64,000 nucleotides of DNA from a virus. This document shows, in pieces, positions 1 through 54,626 of the stretch. Made by a program: the position numbers and the translations under genes. Each line of letters starts with the position of its first letter. Within the stretch, counting starts at the first letter, position 1. The notes under the pieces were generated by a model, which was given only the letters and a program-made list of their open reading frames with translations, had not been told where the DNA came from and searched no databases. Location: positions 1 to 64,000 of IMG/VR virus record IMGVR_UViG_3300032397_000005; one strand, 5' to 3'.

Positions 1-2517
1 CCGTACAATCTTCCGTTCAGGAGAAGCTACAAGAACCCATACTATGGCTGTTTGGTCGGCCTGTGGCAGGCGGACACTGCCGCAATAGCGGTCCGTCTAC
101 CGTGGGACGCCGCGTGGGAGCCACTGTCTGAATCATGGGCCAGCCATTACATTCCAATGGACCCTTTCGGCACTGGTCCGTTTGGCTACTGCGGTGGTCC
201 GTGGCAGGTGATTACCTATGCACGGGCGGCTGGTGTGTGGAGCCAGTTGGCCATTGGGAAGTTGGACCCTCTGGACTATTACGCCTACACGGCACCTGCT
301 AATCCTTGGCCAGACCCCAGCGGAGTGCCCACGTCCATCCGCGCGTCTCCGGCTTCCGTCTCCTCCCTTGCTGTGGGCGATGGAATTGTAGCTGTGGGTT
401 GCATCCGGCGGGGTTGGAACGAGTCCGTGCCAAGTTGGCCCGGGGTAAATTCCCACTACGGGTCCGGTGCGGTTACGGTGTTCAGCGGAGGGTCGGAGGT
501 TTGTTGCATCGATGACCCGGACAAGCACCCGGGGGAGTTTGTCACGCCTTGGCCCGCGTACGTCAACTACTTTGGGTCGAGCATCTCCATTTGTCCGTTG
601 ACTGGGACAACGATGGTGATTGGTGCCACCAAGGCTCCGCTTGGTTCTGGTCGAGGGCGGGTGTATGTCTTCACGGGTTCTGGTGGCAGCTGGTCTTTGC
701 AACAAACGATATCCCCCGCTACCGGATCTTGCTCCGGGTTTGGAACGAGTGTGGCGGTCTATGGCGACTACCTGGTTGTCGGCGCCCCCACGCTGGTCCG
801 TGGGGAGGTCCACATTTATAAGCGGACAGGTGGAGTCTGGGCTGAGCAGGCACTACTCACCGATGCTGCTGGAGTCTGGTTTGGTAGCACGGTAGGCATA
901 GACAGAGGTACCGTTGTCGTCGGCGACCCTGCTATGGGCGCCGGGTACGGGCAGATCTCGGCTTACTACAGGGCTGGGACGACCTGGACACTCATCGGCA
1001 GGAAGTATTCCACACCCACAGCCAACAGCGAATACATGACCCAGCAGGGTGTGGCGGCTCTTGCGGACAATGTCCCGACCTACATGGCTGCGGTACAGAA
1101 GTACTCCGCTGGCGACAACCGTGGAGCAGTGGTTGAGTTCTATGTGGCCAGTCCAGGACCGGGCTACTCGAGCATCACCAACAATTCCCCGACCGGATCG
1201 GGGGTGCTCTCCAACGTGGACCTTACCTTCCGGTTGATAGACCCGGACCTGCGCGACGACTTGGACCCCACCAAGACCCGGGTATGGGTCAACGGCGCCG
1301 TGATCTACGAAAACGAGGTGCCGGTCAGTGGCTGGTTTGTGTCCCGGGCCAACTTGGCAGATGGGTACGCCTACACGCTATACAAGGCCCAGTACGAATG
1401 GGGGGCAGGGCTGAACACGGTAAGGGCATACGGCGAGGACTATGAGGGGAACGCGGCGGACAGGACGTGGACCTTCACGGTCACCGACCGCCCATGGGTT
1501 GAGGCGACATACCCGGCCGCGAAGGCTCCCCCATACACGTTTGACGTGGACCCTGCCACCATCATCCAGTTCAACGCCGTTACCAGTAACTCCACCATCG
1601 ACAACGCCCAGACGGTCATCATGGTAAATGGTGCTGTGGTCTACACCGGGGGGGTGGCCGCGCCTGGGTGGGGTGTTAGTTCTGTCCCGGTTGGCGTGCC
1701 GGGGAGGATAGGGCTGAGGTATACGCTAACCCACTCCGTGCCGTTTGTGTCGCTGTCAACCGTCACGGTTGCGGTCACGCTTAAGAACAATGCCGGAGAG
1801 ACGATCCCACCCTCATCCTACCCTAACCCTCCGTGGAACCCGTGGTCCTTCGTAATCATGGACGCCACGTCGCCCGTCATCAACAACAAGTTCCCGGCGG
1901 ACGGGTCCTCGGATCAGGCCACGGACGTCAGCATCTGCTTCGACGTCACGGACGTGGACCTCAACGTGGATCCGGTCCAGACGGACGTCTTGGTGGACGG
2001 GGTCCCGGTCTACGCGGTGGAGGCGAGCATCCCTGGGTGGACGGTGGTCAGGTCCTCCCTCCCGACGGGGTATCGGTACGCGGTGACCGGTCCCGGGTTC
2101 GCCCCGGGCGCGGAGGTCTCCGTCGCGGTCCACGCGGAGGACCTCACGTACCTATTTGCGGACGCCGCGTGGACCTTCTCCGTTGTGTGGCGAGCCGCGG
2201 ACGTCTGCTCCTACGGGACCGTGTACGGTCCGTTCGGGAGGTGCGTCCTGACACCGGTCCCGACGCCTATCCCGGGACTGGGGCCAATTGTCATCAAGAT
2301 TGACACGCCGACGCCGCGGATCGCCGTGGTCACGTTCAACCGCGTGATGTTCAACAACGCGGACCTGGTGGATCGTCGCGCCTACCTCCTCACGCGGGGG
2401 GTCAAGGTGCTATCCGTCACGCGCCTCAACGGGATTCAGGTCATGCTGCATCTGGACCGGGACCTGAAGTCCCACAAACTCTACTACCTGACAGTTCTAG
2501 CAAACCCGGGGAGCTGA
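1..2517 (+). CDS. Tail fibre/tail-associated protein with FG-GAP repeats and Ig-like domains (5' partial)
   Basis: The frame is open to the left edge, so the true start lies outside the window; the TTG at 52 is not needed. The first ~370 residues carry FG-GAP-type beta-propeller repeats (GTSVAVYGDYLVVGAPT and GSTVGIDRGTVVVGDP). Three Ig-like modules follow, each with a VNGAVIY/VNGAVVY/VDGVPVY-type strand and a W-T/S-F end. The last ~70 residues form a separate beta domain ending YYLTVLANPGS that is nearly duplicated in the next gene. Such modules are typical of adhesive virion proteins, and the gene precedes a tail protein I-like gene. A role in host attachment or as a tail decoration is inferred. 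Confidence 0.7.
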   Translation, partial: PYNLPFRRSYKNPYYGCLVGLWQADTAAIAVRLPWDAAWEPLSESWASHYIPMDPFGTGPFGYCGGPWQVITYARAAGVWSQLAIGKLDPLDYYAYTAPANPWPDPSGVPTSIRASPASVSSLAVGDGIVAVGCIRRGWNESVPSWPGVNSHYGSGAVTVFSGGSEVCCIDDPDKHPGEFVTPWPAYVNYFGSSISICPLTGTTMVIGATKAPLGSGRGRVYVFTGSGGSWSLQQTISPATGSCSGFGTSVAVYGDYLVVGAPTLVRGEVHIYKRTGGVWAEQALLTDAAGVWFGSTVGIDRGTVVVGDPAMGAGYGQISAYYRAGTTWTLIGRKYSTPTANSEYMTQQGVAALADNVPTYMAAVQKYSAGDNRGAVVEFYVASPGPGYSSITNNSPTGSGVLSNVDLTFRLIDPDLRDDLDPTKTRVWVNGAVIYENEVPVSGWFVSRANLADGYAYTLYKAQYEWGAGLNTVRAYGEDYEGNAADRTWTFTVTDRPWVEATYPAAKAPPYTFDVDPATIIQFNAVTSNSTIDNAQTVIMVNGAVVYTGGVAAPGWGVSSVPVGVPGRIGLRYTLTHSVPFVSLSTVTVAVTLKNNAGETIPPSSYPNPPWNPWSFVIMDATSPVINNKFPADGSSDQATDVSICFDVTDVDLNVDPVQTDVLVDGVPVYAVEASIPGWTVVRSSLPTGYRYAVTGPGFAPGAEVSVAVHAEDLTYLFADAAWTFSVVWRAADVCSYGTVYGPFGRCVLTPVPTPIPGLGPIVIKIDTPTPRIAVVTFNRVMFNNADLVDRRAYLLTRGVKVLSVTRLNGIQVMLHLDRDLKSHKLYYLTVLANPGS

Positions 2518-4264: not shown

Positions 4265-6742
4265 ATGGCAACTGGAAATAAGCGGACCAACTTCAGCGGC
4301 AAGCGCCACATGCCGCAGCAGCGGGTCAAGGACACCTTCTTCGACTACCTGGCAAACGAGATCTGGGACACGGCGCGGAGGATCTGGGCGGACCGGCGCG
4401 GGGTCTTCGGGGAGGCGATCCTCCAGGGGGACGGGAACGACAAGTTCAAGGTCTCCAACGTCCCGATCGACTGCCTGGACGGGGAGGGTCACATCCTGAC
4501 GTGCAGCGTCGCCACGGCGCAGGGGATCCAGTTCGAGAACACGGTGAGCGTGGTTTACCACGCGGGGATGCACCACTGCCTGGTTCCGTCCCTGGTCGCG
4601 CGGAACCCGCGGACCGGGATCCTGTTCTACGACCTGTTGGAGGACTGCGTCGGTCTCTCCGGGGTCCCGAACACCGTCCTCCAGGCGGGCGGGAGTATCA
4701 CGGTCACGGTCGACTCCGTCTTCGAGACGGGGGTGTCTCACGCCGGGAGGAAGGTCAGCGTGTGGTTGAACCTCCCCAAGTCCACAAACGAGGCGGTGGC
4801 CATCGAGCGGGACCTGACCGTGGAGTTCACGGGCGGGAAGAACGTGGTTCACACCGGCGGCCTCCTTGGGCAGTCCACCGTCTCCACCAACGCGTCGGAC
4901 TACGCGGTGGCGGCCACGGGCGTGACGGTTCGGCGAAACACGGACCTCCGAGCGGCGGACCCATACGCCTTCCTAGGGACGGTGACGGGCGCTGGCGCGG
5001 GAGTGACGCCGTCCGCGTTCGACGTCACGGAGCAGATCGACGTCACGTCCGGTCTGAACCCCACCCTGGACATCGCCTACGACGGCGGTCCAGGCGGAGG
5101 TCCAGGCGGGTCCGGGCGGGAGATCGTCGTCGACTCCGGGGCGGTGGAGCTCAACACCGTCCCAATTGGGGGCGCAAACGACACGGACGACGCGATGCAC
5201 GCCCAGATGCGGCTCTCCAGGCTGGAGTCGACGGACTGGTTCCAGGCGCAGCTGCAGCTCCTGTGCGGGGACATGTCCCACGTCCCGATTGCGGCGCTCC
5301 AGCCGGTTCAGCACGTCGGGTCCCCGGAGGTCTGCGCGGCCGCAATGGCGGCCAACCTCTCCGGGACCAACCTCATCACGCTCACCGGGGCGAGCATCGA
5401 CCTCACGGACCCGCGGGTCCGGACCAACAAGAAGCTCCACGCGGTGCTCCTGGAGGACTGCCCGCAGGCCGGGCTCTACGTGATCGACACGTTTGGCGCC
5501 AAGACGATCTACGTCAAGACGCTGGAGGACGGGGCACCCGCATCCTGGCCGGCGGGGACGGCCACCTGCCGCCTGATGGTCCCGCGGTTCACGCTTGGCG
5601 GGGCCTTGGTTCACCCCTCGGCGCTCAACTGGTGGCGCGGTCCGCTCTTCGTCCTCCGGGACGGGGACGGCGGTTCCGCCTCCCCGACGGACTTTCGGAT
5701 CATGTCGGAGGGCGCCGGACGGGTGGTCATCTACGACAACTCGAAGACCGCGATGACCTCCTACTACGAGCCGCGGGAACTGGTGGTGATCAACCCGGCG
5801 GAGATCGGGCAGGACCTCCTGTGGCCGGTGAGGTTCCACCGATCCGTCCTCATCGACGGCGGGGACGTCCAGGGGACGGGCGGGGAGGAGGTGGCCTACG
5901 ACCGGGACGGGCTCCGGATCTACGACGCGGGCGGGACGTTCGAGAACCGGGACACCGCGTTTGCGCTGGCCATCGACTTCGGGTTCCCGGAGGACATCCC
6001 CACGTACCACTCGCTGCCCACGTTCTCCCTGGAGACCACGGGCGCAATGAACCGCGGGCACCACTTCCGGGACGACTTCATTGCGTACCAGCTTGGGGCG
6101 TTCTCGACCCTGGGACCGTACACGACCACGCGGACGGGCGGTCGTGGGACGGCGACCATCTGTGATATCACGGACGGCGTGGGGTACGGTCACGGATGCG
6201 TGGAGCTTGTCAGCGGGAACCAAGCGGACGACGTCATCGAGGTGGCGCTAGACCCACTGGCGTTCAACCTGGACGCAGCGTTCGACTTCCGCTGGATGTA
6301 CCGGGCGCGCGTGAAGCTAGCCGACCTTGGGGACGTGACGGCGGACCACGGGTTCTACAGATGCTCGGAGAACCGGGCGTTTTGGTTCAACCTGGTGGCG
6401 GGCGTGTGGTACGGAGCGTGGATCGAGCCGGGACCGGTGGGCCACGCCACCGCCGCGATCTGCGCCGCAACGGCGGACACATACCAGTGGTTCGAGATCT
6501 TCATCTCCTCGAGCATGGTCATCTGGACCGTGGAGCAGAAGGACCACGCGGTGGGGTCCTTCGGGTCGGAGTCCGCGGCCATCACCACCCTCAACGCGCA
6601 GGCCGGGGCGCTGGGGATCAGCTGCCGCGTCAAGACGGCGACGACCGCGGCAAAGACAATGCTGCTGGATTACTGGGAGGTGTGGGACCGGGAGGCCATC
6701 GTGGGACGTCACGGAGCTTCCCACAACTTGCAGCATCCGTAG
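4265..6742 (+). CDS. Large tail fibre / virion structural protein
   Basis: 825 residues, starting behind AGGAGAGG with good spacing. The N-terminus (MATGNKRTNFSGKRHM...) leads into a beta-rich region. A glycine-rich hinge (GGPGGGPGGSGRE, about residue 280) separates it from a second half that ends in a jelly-roll-like domain (about residues 610-810) with regularly spaced aromatic residues. Its place between the gpI-like gene and the lysis cassette, its size and the flexible Gly/Pro linker fit a fibre or baseplate-associated receptor-binding protein. No enzymatic motif was recognised. Confidence 0.6.
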   Translation: MATGNKRTNFSGKRHMPQQRVKDTFFDYLANEIWDTARRIWADRRGVFGEAILQGDGNDKFKVSNVPIDCLDGEGHILTCSVATAQGIQFENTVSVVYHAGMHHCLVPSLVARNPRTGILFYDLLEDCVGLSGVPNTVLQAGGSITVTVDSVFETGVSHAGRKVSVWLNLPKSTNEAVAIERDLTVEFTGGKNVVHTGGLLGQSTVSTNASDYAVAATGVTVRRNTDLRAADPYAFLGTVTGAGAGVTPSAFDVTEQIDVTSGLNPTLDIAYDGGPGGGPGGSGREIVVDSGAVELNTVPIGGANDTDDAMHAQMRLSRLESTDWFQAQLQLLCGDMSHVPIAALQPVQHVGSPEVCAAAMAANLSGTNLITLTGASIDLTDPRVRTNKKLHAVLLEDCPQAGLYVIDTFGAKTIYVKTLEDGAPASWPAGTATCRLMVPRFTLGGALVHPSALNWWRGPLFVLRDGDGGSASPTDFRIMSEGAGRVVIYDNSKTAMTSYYEPRELVVINPAEIGQDLLWPVRFHRSVLIDGGDVQGTGGEEVAYDRDGLRIYDAGGTFENRDTAFALAIDFGFPEDIPTYHSLPTFSLETTGAMNRGHHFRDDFIAYQLGAFSTLGPYTTTRTGGRGTATICDITDGVGYGHGCVELVSGNQADDVIEVALDPLAFNLDAAFDFRWMYRARVKLADLGDVTADHGFYRCSENRAFWFNLVAGVWYGAWIEPGPVGHATAAICAATADTYQWFEIFISSSMVIWTVEQKDHAVGSFGSESAAITTLNAQAGALGISCRVKTATTAAKTMLLDYWEVWDREAIVGRHGASHNLQHP

Positions 6743-10866: not shown

Positions 10867-12486
10867 ATGAAGACGTTGACAATCGAGGTTGGTTCCCACT
10901 TCTGCCTCAAGAAAGCGGACGTGAAGGCGGCGGGACTCCTCCGGGAGCTCCGGGAGGCGTTCGAGCACGACAATCCGGACTTCTGGAAGAAGACTAAGAT
11001 GGGTTTCTGGGCGGGTGAGACGGAGCGGCACCTGACGCTCCTCAGGGTGGACGACTCCAGCGTCCAGGTGCCTAGGGGAGGGTGGGCCAAACTCAAGCGG
11101 ATGCTGGAGCGAGCGGAGGTTGCCTGGCAGTTCGTGGACGGGACCGTCTCCGGGACCGGTTCGTTGGGGTTGACGTACCGGACGCCGGGTGAGTGGGCAC
11201 TTGGTCCGGATCAGCGGAGCGCGGTGAAGGCGCTGGTCCGCGGGCGTCAGGGGATCCTCCTCGGGGTATGCGCATCTGGGAAGACGGAGGTGCTTCTATC
11301 CGCCATATCCCAGATCGACGAGCGGACGCTGGTGGTGGTCCACACGGAGCGGATCATGTCAAACTGGGTCCGAACCGCGGCGGAGCGGTACGGGATCCGG
11401 GAGCGTGACGTTGGGGTGCTCCACGGGAAGGAGAAGCGGGAGCGAAACTTGACGGTTGGGATGGTCAGAACGGTCCTCAACCGCCTGCGGGCGGATCCCA
11501 AGTGGGCCGGCACGTGGGGGTGCGTCGTATTAGATGAAGCTCACCACTGTCCAGCGAGCACCTTCTCCGAGCTCATCTCGGCCTTCCCGGCGCGGTTTCG
11601 ACTGGCGGCCACCGCCACGCCCAAGCGGAAGGACGGGAAGGAGCCTTTATTTTATGACGCGTTTGGCGTGGAGTCCGTACCAAAGCGCGGTGGCGGGAGC
11701 ACGTGGGGACCGCGCACCCTGTTCGAGATCCGGGACGCGGACCTGGATCACTACGGTCGGATCGTCCCGGTGGACGTGGTGGTGGTCCCGACGGACTTTT
11801 GGTTCGACCTGAATCTGGAGGAGTACCTGGAGGACGAGGGGTGGGAGCGGGAGGAGCGGGAGACCGGAGCGGCCTCCGTCCGTCGGTGGGCAAAGCAAGT
11901 GAGATTCTCCGGTTCCCTGAACACGTACGCGGACATGTTGGATGGTATTGTCAAGAACGACCAGCGTCGGGCGCGCGTCCTGGCCTACCTCCTGCCGGAG
12001 ATCCGGGCGGGACGGACCTGCCTCCTACTGGCGGATCGGCGGGAGATGTGCCTCGAGATCCAGGCGTGGCTCAAGCGGCGGGGGGTGGACGCCGGGCGGC
12101 TCATGGGCGGTCTGGACAGCAAGGACCAGGATCGGACGGCGGACGGCCTGGAGGACGGGACCCTCCGCGTGGCGGTGGGGACGACGGTGGCGGACGAGGG
12201 CATGAATATTAAGCGTCTGGACCGCGGCTTCGGGTTGACGCCGGCGGCCTCCAACGCGGGACGGCTGACGCAGCAGACCGGGCGATTCAAGCGGCGACAT
12301 CCGGACAAGGTGGATGCCGTCTACTTCTACTTCTGGGACCGGCGGATCCGCGGACTCCGGGGGCACGCTCGGGCAATTCTAGCGGCCATCCAGGCGCCCC
12401 ACCGGGTCTGGTTCTCGACGGAGCCGGGGGAGCGGGTCCAGCTGACGCAGGAGCTCCTGCGTCAGCTCGAGGAGGTGCGGAAGTGA
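10867..12486 (+). CDS. SF2 DNA helicase (UvsW/XPB-like)
   Basis: 539 residues. Walker A GVCASGKT (133-140), DEAH box in VVLDEAHHC, motif III ATATP, and C-terminal helicase motifs VAVGTTVADEGMNI and QQTGRFKRRHP. The ~110-residue N-terminal extension fits the substrate-binding domain of UvsW/RapA-type SF2 enzymes. In T4, UvsW drives branch migration and the switch from origin- to recombination-dependent replication; a similar role is likely here given the T4-like recombination genes downstream. Its end overlaps the next GTG. Confidence 0.8.
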   Translation: MKTLTIEVGSHFCLKKADVKAAGLLRELREAFEHDNPDFWKKTKMGFWAGETERHLTLLRVDDSSVQVPRGGWAKLKRMLERAEVAWQFVDGTVSGTGSLGLTYRTPGEWALGPDQRSAVKALVRGRQGILLGVCASGKTEVLLSAISQIDERTLVVVHTERIMSNWVRTAAERYGIRERDVGVLHGKEKRERNLTVGMVRTVLNRLRADPKWAGTWGCVVLDEAHHCPASTFSELISAFPARFRLAATATPKRKDGKEPLFYDAFGVESVPKRGGGSTWGPRTLFEIRDADLDHYGRIVPVDVVVVPTDFWFDLNLEEYLEDEGWEREERETGAASVRRWAKQVRFSGSLNTYADMLDGIVKNDQRRARVLAYLLPEIRAGRTCLLLADRREMCLEIQAWLKRRGVDAGRLMGGLDSKDQDRTADGLEDGTLRVAVGTTVADEGMNIKRLDRGFGLTPAASNAGRLTQQTGRFKRRHPDKVDAVYFYFWDRRIRGLRGHARAILAAIQAPHRVWFSTEPGERVQLTQELLRQLEEVRK

Positions 12487-12929
12487 GGGACCTCATCCTG
12501 CCCGTCGAGGAGCAACCCGGGGAGCTCTCCTTTGTCCGGGGCGGTTGCCTGCACTGCCAAGCGGATCTCTCCTGGAGCGGGACGCCGTTCGTGAGCGAGA
12601 ACCGTCCGCTACGCTGCCCAAGGTGCGGGACGGAGCACCTGGTGGACCTCTCCGCCAACGGGACGCGGGTCAAGGTGCGCCTTCCGCGGAACTGCGACGC
12701 CTGGTTCGAGGTGGAGAGCTCCAACGTGGCGGCCGTGGGGGCGCGCGGTCCGGACCTGATTGTCAGGTTCCGGAGCGGCGGGAGCTCGTCGGAGTACCTG
12801 TACGTCGGCGGCGGGGATCTCCTCCCGGAGTTCCTGCGGGCGGAGAGCAAGGGTCGATTCTTCCAGGAGCGGGTCCGCTCCCTCCTGACCGTCAACCTGA
12901 GTCTGGAGAAAAAGGAAACCCGACCGTGA
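12483..12929 (+). CDS. Hypothetical zinc-ribbon protein
   Basis: 148 residues, GTG start overlapping the helicase stop. Two CxxC knuckles (C-L-H-C at about 22 and C-P-R-C at about 46) form a likely zinc ribbon; the rest is beta-rich with a basic helical C-terminus. Coupling to the SF2 helicase suggests a nucleic-acid-related accessory role, but the family is not recognised. Confidence 0.55.
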   Translation: MRDLILPVEEQPGELSFVRGGCLHCQADLSWSGTPFVSENRPLRCPRCGTEHLVDLSANGTRVKVRLPRNCDAWFEVESSNVAAVGARGPDLIVRFRSGGSSSEYLYVGGGDLLPEFLRAESKGRFFQERVRSLLTVNLSLEKKETRP

Positions 12930-12957
12930 GGTGTGTCGGCCTCCCGGTCGGGTCCTT
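12919..12957 (+). terminator. Intrinsic terminator candidate at end of helicase operon
   Basis: Perfect 8-bp arms at 12919-12926 and 12945-12952 with an 18-base loop, followed by TCCTTCC. It overlaps the last codons of the zinc-ribbon gene and precedes a 124-base gap (12930-13053). A second pairing, CCTCACCG with the upstream CCGTGAGG, may compete. Confidence 0.5.
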
Positions 12958-13041
12958 CCTCACCGTGAGGACCACGGTTGCGTGAGTGGGTGGTACGGTA
13001 GCAGATCCCCGCACCCGCGTCTACTGGTTGGTTGAACCGCA

Positions 13042-13071
13042 AAGGAGCGAGCAATGAAGGAGCGAGCAATG
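13042..13071 (+). repeat. Duplicated ribosome-binding site and start codon
   Basis: The 15-mer AAGGAGCGAGCAATG occurs twice head-to-tail (13042-13056, 13057-13071). The unit is five codons, so both ATGs are in the same frame and each has its own AAGGAG. The initiator gene can start at 13054 or 13069. Confidence 0.8.
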
Positions 13072-14346
13072 AGGGCGGAGGACTACACCTTCAGCATGAT
13101 CCCGGATCCGCTGGCGGCAACCAAGCGGGTTGGAGGACCCGCAAAGCGCGTCTGGACGTGCATCTACAGCTGGAGGCGGATGGGACGGGAGCAGTGGAAG
13201 CTCACCGGGCAGCGACTCTCCCGGATAGTCAACATTGATCGACGCCACCTCCAACGCACCGTGGAGGAACTCGAGGAGGCCGGCCTCCTCGAGTACCGAG
13301 TCATCACCCAGCGGAACGGGAGCAAGCGGACGGAGTACCGGGACCTCTGGCCCGGCTGGCTCTCGAAGGAGGGCGCCCGCTTTCTCCTCGCTCAGTGCAT
13401 TGGCAGCGGATCCGACGAGGACGAGGACGCGTTTGAGAGGTGCGGATCCGAAGAAGTTTGTACAGTACCCCATACAGTAGAAGAGGAAGAAGTTTGTATA
13501 GTACCCCATACAGTAGCAAAAGAGCGAAAGACCCCATGTTCCAACGGTGCGCCGACCATGTTCCATGGGGTCTCCAACCATGTTCCGACGGGGCGCACCA
13601 TTAAGAGTCCTTCCCGGGAGAGCCCTTCTTCTCTTTCTCCTGAAGGAGAAAGTGAGGAGAGTTCATATTTGGACGATTCCGCGGAATCGTCCAGATTTGA
13701 GGGGGACCCCACATCCACGGGGACCGTGAACCTCGATGACGATTCCCCGGAGGCTCGGGACGTCCTGGAACTCCAGAGGGTCCAGCGGGCGGAGCGTCGG
13801 GAGGCGCTCATGAAGCGTCCTCGAGTGAGGAAGGTCACCGAGGTCAAATCTGGGGAGGAGTTCCGGAACTCCCCCAGCTCCAGGCCGGAGTGGAACGCCT
13901 GGCGGGATAAGAACGTCACCGCGTGGACCGGTAGGGACCTCGTTGGCTTCTGGGTCTGCAGGTTCCGGGAGGTTCGGGGGGCGGAGGATCCGGACTTTAG
14001 CGCGGCCTCCCTCTCCGTGGGGTACGCTCCCGCGGCCATGCGGTTGGTCAAGCAGTTCGTGAGCCTCAACCTTGGGAGCGCGGTCAAGTACCGGGACTTG
14101 GTGGAGAGGGTCCTCGCCGAGGCGGAGGCTCTAGGGAGACCGGTCTCCCTCCGCTATTGGTTTGGGACGCCCTCGAACCCGCGGACCCTTGCATCCCTGG
14201 ATAAGGGGAAGGGAGGGCGGGAGATGTCTCCCGCGGAGAGGAACGATCTGGACGGGGCGAATCTGGAACTCCACGAGCGGCGCGGCCGGGAGTGGTATGA
14301 ACGTCAGTTGGAGAAGGATCGGGAGGATGCGGCAGTTGGACGCTGA
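13054..14346 (+). CDS. Replication initiator / replisome organiser with winged-HTH domain and embedded origin
   Basis: Up to 430 residues (425 from the second ATG). The N-terminal ~110 residues form a winged helix (LSRIVNIDRRHLQRTVEELE, EEAGLLEYRV) like lambda O-type or replisome organiser proteins. The middle (about 135-235) is low-complexity and Ser/Glu-rich and its DNA carries the iteron cluster at 13453-13693. The C-terminal ~150 residues are helical (WNAWRDKNVTAWTGRDLVGF...) and probably contact the loader. The gene is followed directly by helicase loader, DnaB and primase genes, the classic lambda O-P-like order. The origin inside the initiator gene also matches lambda. Specific family not confirmed. 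Confidence 0.75.
   Translation: MKERAMRAEDYTFSMIPDPLAATKRVGGPAKRVWTCIYSWRRMGREQWKLTGQRLSRIVNIDRRHLQRTVEELEEAGLLEYRVITQRNGSKRTEYRDLWPGWLSKEGARFLLAQCIGSGSDEDEDAFERCGSEEVCTVPHTVEEEEVCIVPHTVAKERKTPCSNGAPTMFHGVSNHVPTGRTIKSPSRESPSSLSPEGESEESSYLDDSAESSRFEGDPTSTGTVNLDDDSPEARDVLELQRVQRAERREALMKRPRVRKVTEVKSGEEFRNSPSSRPEWNAWRDKNVTAWTGRDLVGFWVCRFREVRGAEDPDFSAASLSVGYAPAAMRLVKQFVSLNLGSAVKYRDLVERVLAEAEALGRPVSLRYWFGTPSNPRTLASLDKGKGGREMSPAERNDLDGANLELHERRGREWYERQLEKDREDAAVGR
13453..13516. repeat. Two 28-bp direct repeats (iterons A) inside initiator gene
   Basis: Copies at 13453-13480 and 13489-13516 (period 36) differ at one base only; the core is AGTACCCCATACAGTAG. They are AT-richer than flanking sequence and lie where the encoded protein is low-complexity, as with the lambda O gene iterons. 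Confidence 0.8.
13534..13599. repeat. Three 22-bp iterons (iterons B) inside initiator gene
   Basis: CCATGTTCC occurs at 13534, 13556 and 13578, exactly 22 bp apart (about two helical turns). The first and third copies share further similarity downstream (AACGGTGCGCC and GACGGGGCGCACC). Since 22 is not a multiple of 3, the copies are read in different frames, so conservation acts on DNA rather than protein. Confidence 0.75.
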
Positions 14347-14944
14347 GGCGCTGCGGAAGTTTATCACTCGGACGGGTTGCCCGCGGGTCTTCGCGGATCT
14401 CGAGGTCTCCGACATGGAGGGGGACGCCGCGTACCAACGGGTGCTGATCCACGTTGGGAATCTAGCGGAGGAGCGGCTCGCCTCCCGGGACTTCCTGCGT
14501 CGTCCGATCTACCTGCGCTTCACCGGGGCGTTTGGGAGCGGAAAGACGCGCCTGGCGTGCTGGACACTCCGGCACGCCTACCTGGGGATGCTCCCCATCT
14601 GCAACGCCGCGGTCAACCCGCTATTTGTGAAGGCAAGTGACCTGGTGGAACTCCGCTTCCAGAAGCGGTTTGGGGAGGCAGACGAGGACGACGAGCGGGC
14701 GTCTGCGGTTCGGGACCGTCTCTTCAGCTCCGCGTTCCTAGTGATCGACGACGTCTCTCGAGTGGCCGGTTACCGCGGGGAGGAACTCTTCGTGGAGCAC
14801 GTGGTGGAGCGGCGCTGGGAGGACCTCCGCTCGACGGTCCTGACCATGAACTCCAACAACTCTCTCAGCGTCAGGTTTGCAGACTTCCTTAATTACTTTG
14901 ATGAGTTACCACTGGTTGGGGGGAGCAGGAGGGCGCGTGACTAA
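14327..14944 (+). CDS. DnaC/DnaA-like AAA+ helicase loader
   Basis: ATG at 14327 (an in-frame ATG at 14297 is possible) gives 205 residues, overlapping the initiator by 20 bases. Walker A GAFGSGKT (67-74), Walker B LVIDDVSR, and a sensor-like TMNSNN mark an AAA+ ATPase of the DnaC/IstB class. It probably loads the DnaB helicase encoded immediately downstream onto the origin melted by the initiator. Its stop overlaps the helicase GTG. Confidence 0.8.
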   Translation: MRQLDAEALRKFITRTGCPRVFADLEVSDMEGDAAYQRVLIHVGNLAEERLASRDFLRRPIYLRFTGAFGSGKTRLACWTLRHAYLGMLPICNAAVNPLFVKASDLVELRFQKRFGEADEDDERASAVRDRLFSSAFLVIDDVSRVAGYRGEELFVEHVVERRWEDLRSTVLTMNSNNSLSVRFADFLNYFDELPLVGGSRRARD

Positions 14945-16262
14945 GGAGTCATCAGAGCGACTGATCCTGGACGTCCACGTCGAGAACGAGCAGGTTGTCC
15001 TGGCGGCCGTCATCCTCGACCCGGGGACATTTCGACGGGAGGTCCCCGGTCTCCGCCTGGAGTGGTTCAACTCCCCGAACCACCGAGACATCGTCCGGAC
15101 CCTCCGGCAGATCCTCCGGGGCGGCGGCGCGTACGCGGCGGACACGGTCGTTCACCTCTCCAACGGGGCGGTCAAGCTCGAGTACCTCCGCGGACTGGAG
15201 GACAAGTTCTCACCCCTCCCGGCGGAGAACTTCTCGATGCATTTGGGCATCCTCAAGCGGGACTCCGCCAAGTTTGCCGCCAACACTCCCTTCACGGCGC
15301 TCTACGGGGACCTGGACGACCCCCACGCGACGCCGGAGGAGGCGGCGGGGCACGCCCTCGACGTTCTGAGGTGCCTCCGCGGCGGGATTGCCGGGGAGGC
15401 GCGGGTCAGACGCGGGCGGGCGCTCCGGGAGGAGTGGTTCTCCGACCTGTCCGACGTGCGGACGGGGAAGGACGTCAACTTTGTGCCGACCCACTTCTCG
15501 GAGCTGGACGCCTTCCTCTACGAGGGGCTGCGCCCGGGGCGCGTGGTCGTTGTCGCCGGTCGCCCGGGGATGGGGAAGAGCACCTTCTGCTCCAACCTCA
15601 CGCGTCGGCTGGGGAACCACGGTCGCCGGGTCCTCTCCGTTCCGGTGGAGGCGGGGACGATGTCCGTGGTGGAGCAGATGGCGTGCGCTCGAGCGCAAGT
15701 CGCGGCGGAGAAGGTGATCAAGACACCTCACCTCCTGACGGACCTGGAGATGATGAGTCTGCGGGCGGCGGCGAAGCTCATCCTGGACAGCGAGTACCTG
15801 GTCTTTGACGACGAGGTGGCGAACCTGGATGAGTTGGAGCTCCGGGTGGAGGAGGAGAACTTCGACGTGGTGATCCTGGACCTGTTTGAGTACCTGATTC
15901 AGGGGGAGGTGGACGCCGCGCGGGTGACGGAGGACCTCCGTCGCCTGAAGAAGCTGGCTAAGCGCCGGAGGTTTGCCGCCGTGGTAGTCCAGCAGATCCG
16001 GCGCATCAAGCGGGTCAAAAACCCGAGACCGCAGCTCCATGAGCTCAAGAATTCCGGTGGGTACGAGGAGGTGGCGGATCTGGTCCTGCTCCTCCATCGT
16101 TCGAAGTATTACGACCCGGACTCCGAGGACTCGGACGTGCTTGAGATCAAGGTGGCCAAGCAGCGGCGGGGACCCCAGAACGTGACCGTGGGGTATGAGT
16201 TTGAGCCGGAGATCTGCCGGGTTGGCAAGTTCACAACGGACCACTCCGGGGGGCGCGGGTGA
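14937..16262 (+). CDS. dnaB: Replicative DNA helicase, DnaB family
   Basis: GTG at 14937 behind AGGAGGGCGC gives 441 residues, the usual DnaB length. The N-terminal domain has the DnaB-type DVHVENEQVVLAAVILDP; Walker A GRPGMGKS is at 208-215, Walker B VVILDLFEY, and the late motif FAAVVVQQIRRIK follows. It is the hexameric 5'-3' helicase of the fork, loaded by the upstream AAA+ protein and acting with the downstream primase, whose GTG overlaps its stop. Confidence 0.88.
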   Translation: MTKESSERLILDVHVENEQVVLAAVILDPGTFRREVPGLRLEWFNSPNHRDIVRTLRQILRGGGAYAADTVVHLSNGAVKLEYLRGLEDKFSPLPAENFSMHLGILKRDSAKFAANTPFTALYGDLDDPHATPEEAAGHALDVLRCLRGGIAGEARVRRGRALREEWFSDLSDVRTGKDVNFVPTHFSELDAFLYEGLRPGRVVVVAGRPGMGKSTFCSNLTRRLGNHGRRVLSVPVEAGTMSVVEQMACARAQVAAEKVIKTPHLLTDLEMMSLRAAAKLILDSEYLVFDDEVANLDELELRVEEENFDVVILDLFEYLIQGEVDAARVTEDLRRLKKLAKRRRFAAVVVQQIRRIKRVKNPRPQLHELKNSGGYEEVADLVLLLHRSKYYDPDSEDSDVLEIKVAKQRRGPQNVTVGYEFEPEICRVGKFTTDHSGGRG

Positions 16263-17419
16263 GCTCCCGGCGGGAACTCGAGCGGGAGCAGCGCCTGCTG
16301 CGTCACCTCGATCTGGAGGAGGTCCTGGAGGAACTTGGCCTGGAGGTCCTCTGGCGCAACGGGTCCGACGCGTACCTACTCTGTCCGGACCCAAATCACG
16401 TGGAGGGCAACCCGTCGTTCCACGTCTGCGTGGAGGACGTCTACGACGCGCGCGGACGGGCCCATATTGGCTGGTTCAACTGCTGGAGCCATCCCGGTGG
16501 GGACCTGCGCTCACGCAGCTTCCTGGAGCTTGTGGCGCGCGTCAGGAGTGACGTTTGGGGTGAGGACCGGTGGCCAACGGAGGAGGAGCGGGGGGCGGCG
16601 GCTAGTTGGCTCCGGCGGAAGTTTGTCCGCGGCGGGGACGCTCAGTCCGACGAGGACGCCCGGATGACTCCGCTGCGTCGGCGGGACGCCTTCCGTCGGC
16701 AGGTGGACTGGCGGGAACTACTCTGGCCGCCGAACTTCCCAATCCGACGCGCGCGGAGGGAGTTCCGGGACTACCTACTGAGGCGCGGTGTCTCCCTCGA
16801 GCGGGCGGAGGAGCTGGACGTTCGTGCGGTCCCGTCGTCCGGTGAGGTACTCCGCGGTGTGCTTCGGGAGACGGCGCCGGGCGTGCTGTTCCCGATCTGG
16901 GAGGGTGGGAAGCCGGTCAACTGGTACGTCCGTTCGATCTTCAAAGTTCCGTCCAGGGTGAAGGGGAGGTACTGCCCGGGCCTCCCGTTTGTCAAGGACG
17001 CCGGGATCATCTGGGCGCCGGACGGCGTGGACGACACCCGTCCGGTGGCGCTTGTCGAGGGAATCTTCGACGCGGAGCGGGTCCGGGCGGTGATCCTCCG
17101 GAATCCGGGGCTTTCTTTCGTTCCAATGAGTAATGTGGTGGCGGTCCTCGGTGGGAGGATCTACCCTATGCAGGCGCGACGCCTCCGAACGGTCCCCGCA
17201 ATCCTCCACCTGGCGGACGGGGACGCCGGCGGACTGAACCTCTTCGAGACGGTGGAGGGGGAGCTTGGCAGGTTCACTAGACTTGAACTCCGGCAGATGC
17301 CGGAGCGGGCGGATCCGGGGGATGCCCCGGAGGACGCGATCCTGGCGGCGCTCAGACCACCGGAGGACGTACAGCTGGTTTCGGTGCGCTTTCGGGTCCC
17401 ACCGCGGAGGACCGCATGA
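16259..17419 (+). CDS. DnaG-like DNA primase
   Basis: 386 residues, GTG start overlapping the helicase stop. The N-terminal zinc-binding region (C42-PDPNH47 ... FNC75WSHPGGD) is followed by a linker and a Toprim domain: VALVEGIFDAERV (catalytic Glu), VVAVLGG and ILHLADGDAGG (Asp pair). It is shorter than cellular DnaG and lacks an obvious helicase-binding C-domain, as in many phages. It makes RNA primers for lagging-strand synthesis with the adjacent DnaB-like helicase. Confidence 0.82.
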   Translation: MSSRRELEREQRLLRHLDLEEVLEELGLEVLWRNGSDAYLLCPDPNHVEGNPSFHVCVEDVYDARGRAHIGWFNCWSHPGGDLRSRSFLELVARVRSDVWGEDRWPTEEERGAAASWLRRKFVRGGDAQSDEDARMTPLRRRDAFRRQVDWRELLWPPNFPIRRARREFRDYLLRRGVSLERAEELDVRAVPSSGEVLRGVLRETAPGVLFPIWEGGKPVNWYVRSIFKVPSRVKGRYCPGLPFVKDAGIIWAPDGVDDTRPVALVEGIFDAERVRAVILRNPGLSFVPMSNVVAVLGGRIYPMQARRLRTVPAILHLADGDAGGLNLFETVEGELGRFTRLELRQMPERADPGDAPEDAILAALRPPEDVQLVSVRFRVPPRRTA

Positions 17420-38766: not shown

Positions 38767-39035
38767 TGGCTAATCGGTACCTTGACATGAGTTCCGCGGA
38801 TCAGGCGGAGTTCTCCGAGGTGGTTGGTGACGTCTTCCTGGCGAATCGGAGTGAGCGCGGGGGCCGAGGGGTCGCGGAGTGCGTTGCTGATGAACTTGGT
38901 CTCCGTGGGTGGGAGGTTTACCCACCATCTGAGGTGCGTAAGTTGTACGGCGCGCTACAAAGTGGGCGGAAAGTTGGAGATGAGACCTCTACAACGGTTA
39001 AGATGCCACGCGTCAAGAGAATGAAGGAGCGGTGA
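38766..39035 (+). CDS. Hypothetical protein
   Basis: 89 residues, TGATG overlap with the resolvase. Mixed helix with a strongly basic end (VKMPRVKRMKER). No motif recognised. Confidence 0.5.
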   Translation: MANRYLDMSSADQAEFSEVVGDVFLANRSERGGRGVAECVADELGLRGWEVYPPSEVRKLYGALQSGRKVGDETSTTVKMPRVKRMKER

Positions 39036-39036
39036 G

Positions 39037-39249
39037 ATGGACGTCGACGAGGCCGTGGAGATGTGCGACAAGATCCTCGAGGACCTGGACCTGCTCCCGG
39101 AGCGCGCGGCGGAGTTCTCGGACTCCGTGGCGGAGAAGGTTGGCGGGATGCGGGACTGGATCGAGGAGCACCAGGCCGTGACGGATCGTATGTCCACCGC
39201 ACTGGAGAACATCCGCGGGGGCGTTGACAAGTGGTTGGGGAACGCGTGA
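39037..39249 (+). CDS. Hypothetical acidic helical protein
   Basis: 70 residues, ATG two bases after the previous stop. Almost entirely helical (CDKILEDLDLLPERAAEF; VAEKVGGMRDWIEEHQAV). Possibly a small virion or regulatory protein; not assigned. Confidence 0.5.
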   Translation: MDVDEAVEMCDKILEDLDLLPERAAEFSDSVAEKVGGMRDWIEEHQAVTDRMSTALENIRGGVDKWLGNA

Positions 39250-54472: not shown

Positions 54473-54589
54473 CGGGACCCAAGTTGGGACCAACTTGTTA
54501 TCGTTCAGAAACGGGACCCAAGTTGGGACCAACTTGTTATCGTTCAGAAACGGGACCCAAGTTGGGACCAACTTGTTATCGTTCAGAAA
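54473..54589. repeat. Three perfect 39-bp direct repeats with internal dyad
   Basis: Units at 54473-54511, 54512-54550 and 54551-54589 are identical, then a partial copy (54595-54602). Each contains AAGTTGGGACCAACTT, a 7-bp-arm inverted repeat with two spacer bases. They are contiguous, without unique spacers, so not CRISPR. They may bind the HTH protein encoded leftward at 54627-54845. Confidence 0.9.
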
Positions 54590-54626
54590 CGGGGTTCAGA
54601 AATGGAGTCCCGGTTTAGGTCCAACG

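Follow-up and report, generated by a model that had tools for sequence, protein, structure and literature searches.

The closest described system to the locus analysed here is the origin of bacteriophage lambda (oriLambda), in which repeats lie inside the initiator gene O and are followed by a stretch with an A/purine-rich coding strand and then by an inverted repeat; the next gene, P, encodes the helicase loader. Each lambda iteron is an imperfect inverted repeat, O occurs as a dimer, and the A+T-rich tract is required for unwinding but dispensable for binding (PMC7466680). Among the published ori mutants of lambda, one has lost 24 bp of the iterons and another the 12 bp (39120-39131) that adjoin iteron 4 on its far side (PMC6022878). 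In SPP1, oriL comprises direct repeats and an AT-rich element inside the initiator gene, gene 38; the phage encodes its own initiator, loader and DnaB-type helicase (gp38, gp39 and gp40) and has a further origin, oriR (PMC6316719). Among the RepA_N plasmids, the winged-helix N-terminal domain (NTD) of pSK41 Rep binds boxes that lie centrally in rep, where the origin DNA codes for the linker of the protein, and pPR9 retains the C-terminal domain (CTD) but has had the pSK41 NTD and origin exchanged as a pair (PMC5703833). The unwinding region of Bacillus subtilis oriC contains, beside the initiator sites, the DnaD recognition element, which is short and strand-specific (PMC10201434).

The window analysed here is a 64-kb stretch of phage DNA, the first part of a record of 105,443 bp. 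A preliminary description had placed a repeat cluster within the replication initiator gene, upstream of genes for a loader, DnaB and primase, and PHROG and Pfam matches support all three of these assignments. The genes follow one another in the order initiator, loader, DnaB, primase:

13054-14346, + strand, replication initiator gene (open reading frame, 430 aa)
14327-14944, + strand, DnaC-like helicase loader (PHROG 3277 'DnaC-like helicase loader', 1.9e-6)
14937-16262, + strand, DnaB-type replicative helicase (Pfam DnaB_C, 7e-37; PHROG 19)
16259-17419, + strand, DNA primase (PHROG 47, 9.7e-16)

Two classes of repeat were found in the initiator gene:

13450-13485, + strand, repeat class A, copy 1: GAAGAAGTTTGTACAGTACCCCATACAGTAGAAGAG
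13486-13521, + strand, repeat class A, copy 2, 89% identical to and in frame with copy 1
13534-13552, + strand, repeat class B (22-bp phased iteron), copy 1, core CCATGTTCC
13556-13574, + strand, repeat class B, copy 2
13578-13596, + strand, repeat class B, copy 3

The two 28-bp repeats noted previously are present, but as the core of the 36-bp tandem pair of class A (13450-13521). Its period of 36 bp corresponds to 12 codons, and all nine residues shared by the copies use identical codons. The argument that the repeats cannot be protein repeats therefore holds for the 22-bp class only, where CCATGTTCC starts at 13534, 13556 and 13578, exactly 22 bp apart as had been described and in three different reading frames. 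This array was also picked up by Tandem Repeats Finder. There are no further copies of CCATGTTCC in the window or in the whole record, and shuffled versions of the window contained a mean of 0.40 copies and never reached three; across all viral contigs, no exact CCATGTTCC pair at 22 bp was seen. Likewise TACAGTA, the core of class A, occurs three times in 55 bp and nowhere else in the window or the 105-kb record, and is thus not a genome-wide operator. Either class, or both, may be the site that the initiator binds.

To assess the repeats against chance we used synonymous-codon shuffling (500 shuffles with the protein held fixed) as the null for a repeat score. The maximum score of the initiator gene was 74, which none of the 500 shuffles reached (mean 14, largest 46), so that the cluster, all elements of which could be located, is far denser than its protein requires. 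No such excess was found in five neighbouring replication and repair genes, namely those for the loader, DnaB and primase and both helicase genes. Higher scores elsewhere in the genome come from low-complexity codon repeats (21055 and 31579) and from a 39-bp array (54473).

A search of viral contigs and annotated phage records yielded no close relatives of the initiator, and relatives of the phage were instead reached by scanning with DnaB, primase and the loader. When bacterial genomes were scanned, primase found nothing and DnaB found only DnaB genes 25-33% identical, in bacterial contigs; an Rfam search gave zero matches. The origin comparison was made over five independent lineages, the window phage and four relatives: L003/L088/L099 (80.6 kb), L085/L093/L097 (105.9 kb), L086/L091/L101 (75.1 kb, with a second record, L089/L090/L100) and L087/L092/L098 (101.8 kb). 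All four relatives share the initiator-loader-DnaB-primase order. Their loaders are 41-51%, their primases 56-64% and their DnaB proteins, where intact, 57-64% identical to those of the window phage, and their initiators 27-41%. L004 was dropped as a further origin as it does not have this gene order.

In each of the four relatives a repeat cluster lies in the linker-coding stretch after the winged helix, approximately 400-540 bp into the coding sequence, with a unit sequence that differs between phages. The relatives have one main repeat class each, compared with two in the window phage:

L003, 4504/4541/4565/4588, repeat GGTGCGTCAAA, four copies and one variant
L085, 2203/2240/2276, repeat GGGGGTCACCT, three copies
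L086, 3277/3301/3325, repeat GGGTGNGTCA, three copies
L087, 2993/3017/3041, repeat GGTATCG, three copies

Spacing is mostly 22-24 bp across the phages. The copies in L003 and L085 fall in different reading frames; those of L086 and L087, with a period of 24 bp, stay in frame. The repeat score was reached by 0/500 synonymous shuffles in each of three relatives and by 4/500 in L087. Within the examined stretch the cluster is the top local repeat of every phage but L087, where it is narrowly outscored at one other place. We also noted that GTACAG occurs just 5' of the iterons, in differing frames, in L003 (4445 and 4470), L087 (2928-2945) and the window phage (13459), and is absent from L085 and L086; its recurrence in three of the five sequences is suggestive.

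Beyond the last repeat, the following features can be seen in the window phage:

13600-13669, + strand, presumed unwinding region, approximately 46% GC (mean of the genome, 65%)
13602-13606, + strand, TAAGA box, at the start of the presumed unwinding region
13627-13658, + strand, imperfect hairpin TCTTCTCTTTCTCCT/AGGAGAAAGTGAGGA, the best part beginning 34 bp past the last iteron
13670-13693, + strand, perfect 24-bp palindrome TGGACGATTCCGCGGAATCGTCCA, 74 bp past the last iteron

The cluster itself begins in an A+T-rich trough, the lowest 60-bp window of which has 38% GC, a value reached by 0.2% of the windows in the record. Each of the five phages has TAAGA on the coding strand, 2 to 6 bp beyond its last repeat. 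With the sequences aligned in the register of the last repeat, no other 5-mer is shared by the five phages within any 15-bp window between -300 and +400, and among 5000 sets of synonymous shuffles not one had a shared 5-mer of any sequence just after the last repeat, although the box had been spotted by eye in the same five sequences before being tested on them.

A hairpin likewise lies 34-44 bp beyond the last repeat in all five phages, at +43 in L003, +40 in L085, +36 in L086, +37 in L087 (weak) and +34 in the window phage, where the imperfect hairpin is followed by the perfect palindrome at +74. The hairpins of the relatives beat most local windows except in the case of L087, whose hairpin is no better than chance. 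The perfect palindrome is exact, as had been claimed; the inverted repeat first given as 18 bases is also present, but it is imperfect, with arms of 15 nt each (13627-13641 and 13644-13658) that are 87% complementary and separated by 2 nt. Folded as single-stranded DNA, 13600-13720 is more stable than 200/200 shuffles (z -2.9). Two other perfect palindromes were observed nearby, one of 26 bp at 13269-13294 within the winged-helix coding region and one of 28 bp at 12440-12467 in the helicase gene upstream.

We modelled the initiator with AlphaFold2 from five sequences, which gave a low overall pTM of 0.33 but pLDDT values of 80-92 for most of a winged helix (residues ~16-117) and for much of a helical CTD (~270-380), and below 50 for a disordered linker (~117-230). 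The repeats, TAAGA box and palindromes correspond to codons 133-214 and thus lie entirely within the modelled disordered stretch. At the protein level the linker is not conserved among family members, and the CTD is conserved between phages while the repeats differ. PHROG 678 'replication initiation O-like' was matched by all but one of the five family members (best 6.5e-6); on its own, the window initiator gave weak matches, through its winged helix, to PHROG profiles for 'replication initiation' and 'O-like'. With Foldseek the winged helix retrieved the NTDs of plasmid initiators (4pql, 4pt7 and 5kbj) and DnaD, all with E >0.001. HTH_36 (PF13730), the family of the pPR9 NTD, was matched by two of the five members and the RepA_N Pfam domain by none.

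As a positive control, lambda O was put through the same programs. The annotated iterons were recovered (39034-39118 in the record), and their repeat score was reached by 0/500 synonymous shuffles. After iteron 4 comes a purine-rich strand opening with ACACAAAAGA (32% GC over 60 bp), and an inverted repeat lies ~40 bp past iteron 4. The same parts thus stand in the same order in lambda and in five phages, and the suggestion that the arrangement recalls the origin in lambda O is borne out by the four relatives together with this comparison. Spacing is also similar, at 20-24 bp in lambda and 22 bp in class B. There are nevertheless clear differences: the initiator cannot be aligned to O (probability 0.1 when hhalign compared the family alignment with lambda O), the repeat sequences are unrelated and of two classes, TAAGA stands in place of the lambda AAAAGA, the presumed unwinding region is weaker at 46% GC, and the window phage encodes its own DnaB and primase.

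Other systems share some of these features. SPP1 also has repeats and an AT-rich element in the initiator gene together with its own loader and DnaB, and we liken the initiator to gp38 by description; SPP1 differs in having a second origin and in relying on DnaG of its host as primase. The modelled winged helix resembles those of RepA_N initiators at the Foldseek values given above, although these phages show no RepA_N match and carry their own replisome genes, and the initiator family may be a phage parallel to the NTD and origin exchange of pPR9. The role predicted for TAAGA resembles that of the DnaD recognition element, which differs in consisting of paired TnnT motifs.

We conclude that 13450-13693, in the DNA that codes for the initiator's linker, is very probably the origin of replication of this phage, or a principal one, working as set out below; this prediction is drawn from sequence comparison and modelling. 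It rests on repeats that exceed protein-preserving shuffles in five phages and lambda O but not in five neighbouring genes, on four relatives with the same gene order and a cluster of different sequence at the same place, and on the coincidence of the cluster with the modelled disordered linker. The TAAGA box and hairpin at set distances past the last repeat, the repeat spacing, and the O-like PHROG and initiator-NTD Foldseek matches also argue for it, as does the fact that the corresponding parts of lambda are essential, their deletions being ori mutants (PMC6022878). By analogy the predicted origin would work like oriLambda, SPP1 oriL and the RepA_N plasmid origins, a kind already known; new are the TAAGA box, the occurrence of two repeat classes in the window phage, and proteins consisting of the winged helix only, which are encoded ahead of the initiator and were found in the relatives alone. 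The winged-helix NTD, probably as a dimer, would bind the phased repeats, and the resulting nucleoprotein complex would open the A/purine-rich stretch from TAAGA on. The CTD would then pass a complex of the phage loader and DnaB onto the opened strand, where primers would come from the phage primase, and the downstream hairpins may help in loading the helicase or primase, in stopping it, or in holding one strand open. GC skew, put forward in the preliminary description as a check, shows no switch at the cluster; since skew driven by transcription could hide one, it is uninformative as a marker here.

The repeats might instead be operators through which the initiator, or another winged-helix protein, represses the initiator gene or times its expression, with replication starting elsewhere. 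Initiator binding commonly represses as well, and the winged-helix-only paralogues of the relatives show that regulatory proteins of this fold exist there. However, in every relative the repeats are far from a start, well inside the coding sequence, they are followed in lambda-like fashion by TAAGA, the A-rich strand and a hairpin, and no sigma-70-like promoter was detected in 12400-14500 by a scan that may not suit the host; we regard this explanation as quite improbable. Even less credible is that the repeats are by-products of tandem duplication in an expandable low-complexity protein, with no function as DNA. Disorder of the modelled linker would allow this, and the frame is kept by the 36-bp pair and, in L086 and L087, by the 24-bp repeats, but the 22-bp class is out of frame, the copies in L003 and L085 are in different frames, and the excess over synonymous shuffles, the presence of TAAGA in all five phages and the lack of conservation of the linker as protein also argue against it.

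There is also a slim chance that the main origin lies elsewhere and that the initiator-gene cluster is a secondary one. A perfect tandem array of 3.1 copies of a 39-bp unit (CGGGACCCAAGTTGGGACCAACTTGTTATCGTTCAGAAA) was seen at 54473-54593, with an internal inverted repeat and no evident gene, and SPP1, with its two origins, provides a precedent (PMC6316719). Against this, CCATGTTCC and TACAGTA are found at 13.5 kb only, and as the 39-bp unit has no visible sequence in common with the initiator-gene repeats, one initiator would not be expected to bind both. The array is a candidate for another cis-element.

Reading the cluster as the origin places a candidate within ~250 bp in a group of large uncultured phages whose search against annotated phage records brought up no relative, and means that the layout of lambda turns up again with proteins that cannot be aligned and with repeats unrelated in sequence. 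The five candidate origins, with different iterons and recognition helices but a common TAAGA box and gene order, offer a small natural panel in which to study how the DNA specificity of a winged-helix initiator shifts while the origin moves along, and what fixes the strand for helicase loading. One rather doubtful proposal is that the conserved, strand-specific TAAGA would be a fixed point, next to fast-changing iterons, at which the initiator or loader takes hold of one exposed strand, with iterons and winged helix freely exchangeable, and that in the window phage, the only one of the five without an upstream winged-helix paralogue, the second repeat class replaces regulation by that paralogue.

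These paralogues, one or two in each of the four relatives, are encoded directly upstream of the initiator:

L003, 3729-4097
L085, 1339-1794
L086, 2506-2865
L087, 1910-2260 and 2247-2600

They are ~115-120 aa long where the start is clear and are related to the initiator NTD; the last of them overlaps the start of the initiator gene. No such paralogue was found in the window phage. It is possible that they act as competitors, partners or regulators of the initiator.

The converse arrangement was seen in two distant, low-GC phages, L094 and L095, which encode in the same place a protein with the initiator CTD only (4481-5074, E 3e-9, and 4434-5000, E 3e-10, respectively). Neither a winged helix nor iterons lie nearby, and both were dropped as further origins; the ~430 bp without a clear gene before the CTD-only protein may hold their origin. 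Window positions 1268-1317 are identical to the final 50 bases of the 105-kb record, so the record ends may not be true genome ends. In L085 (3800-6000) the DnaB gene appears to be split by an intein at the Walker A motif (GMGK / STFC).
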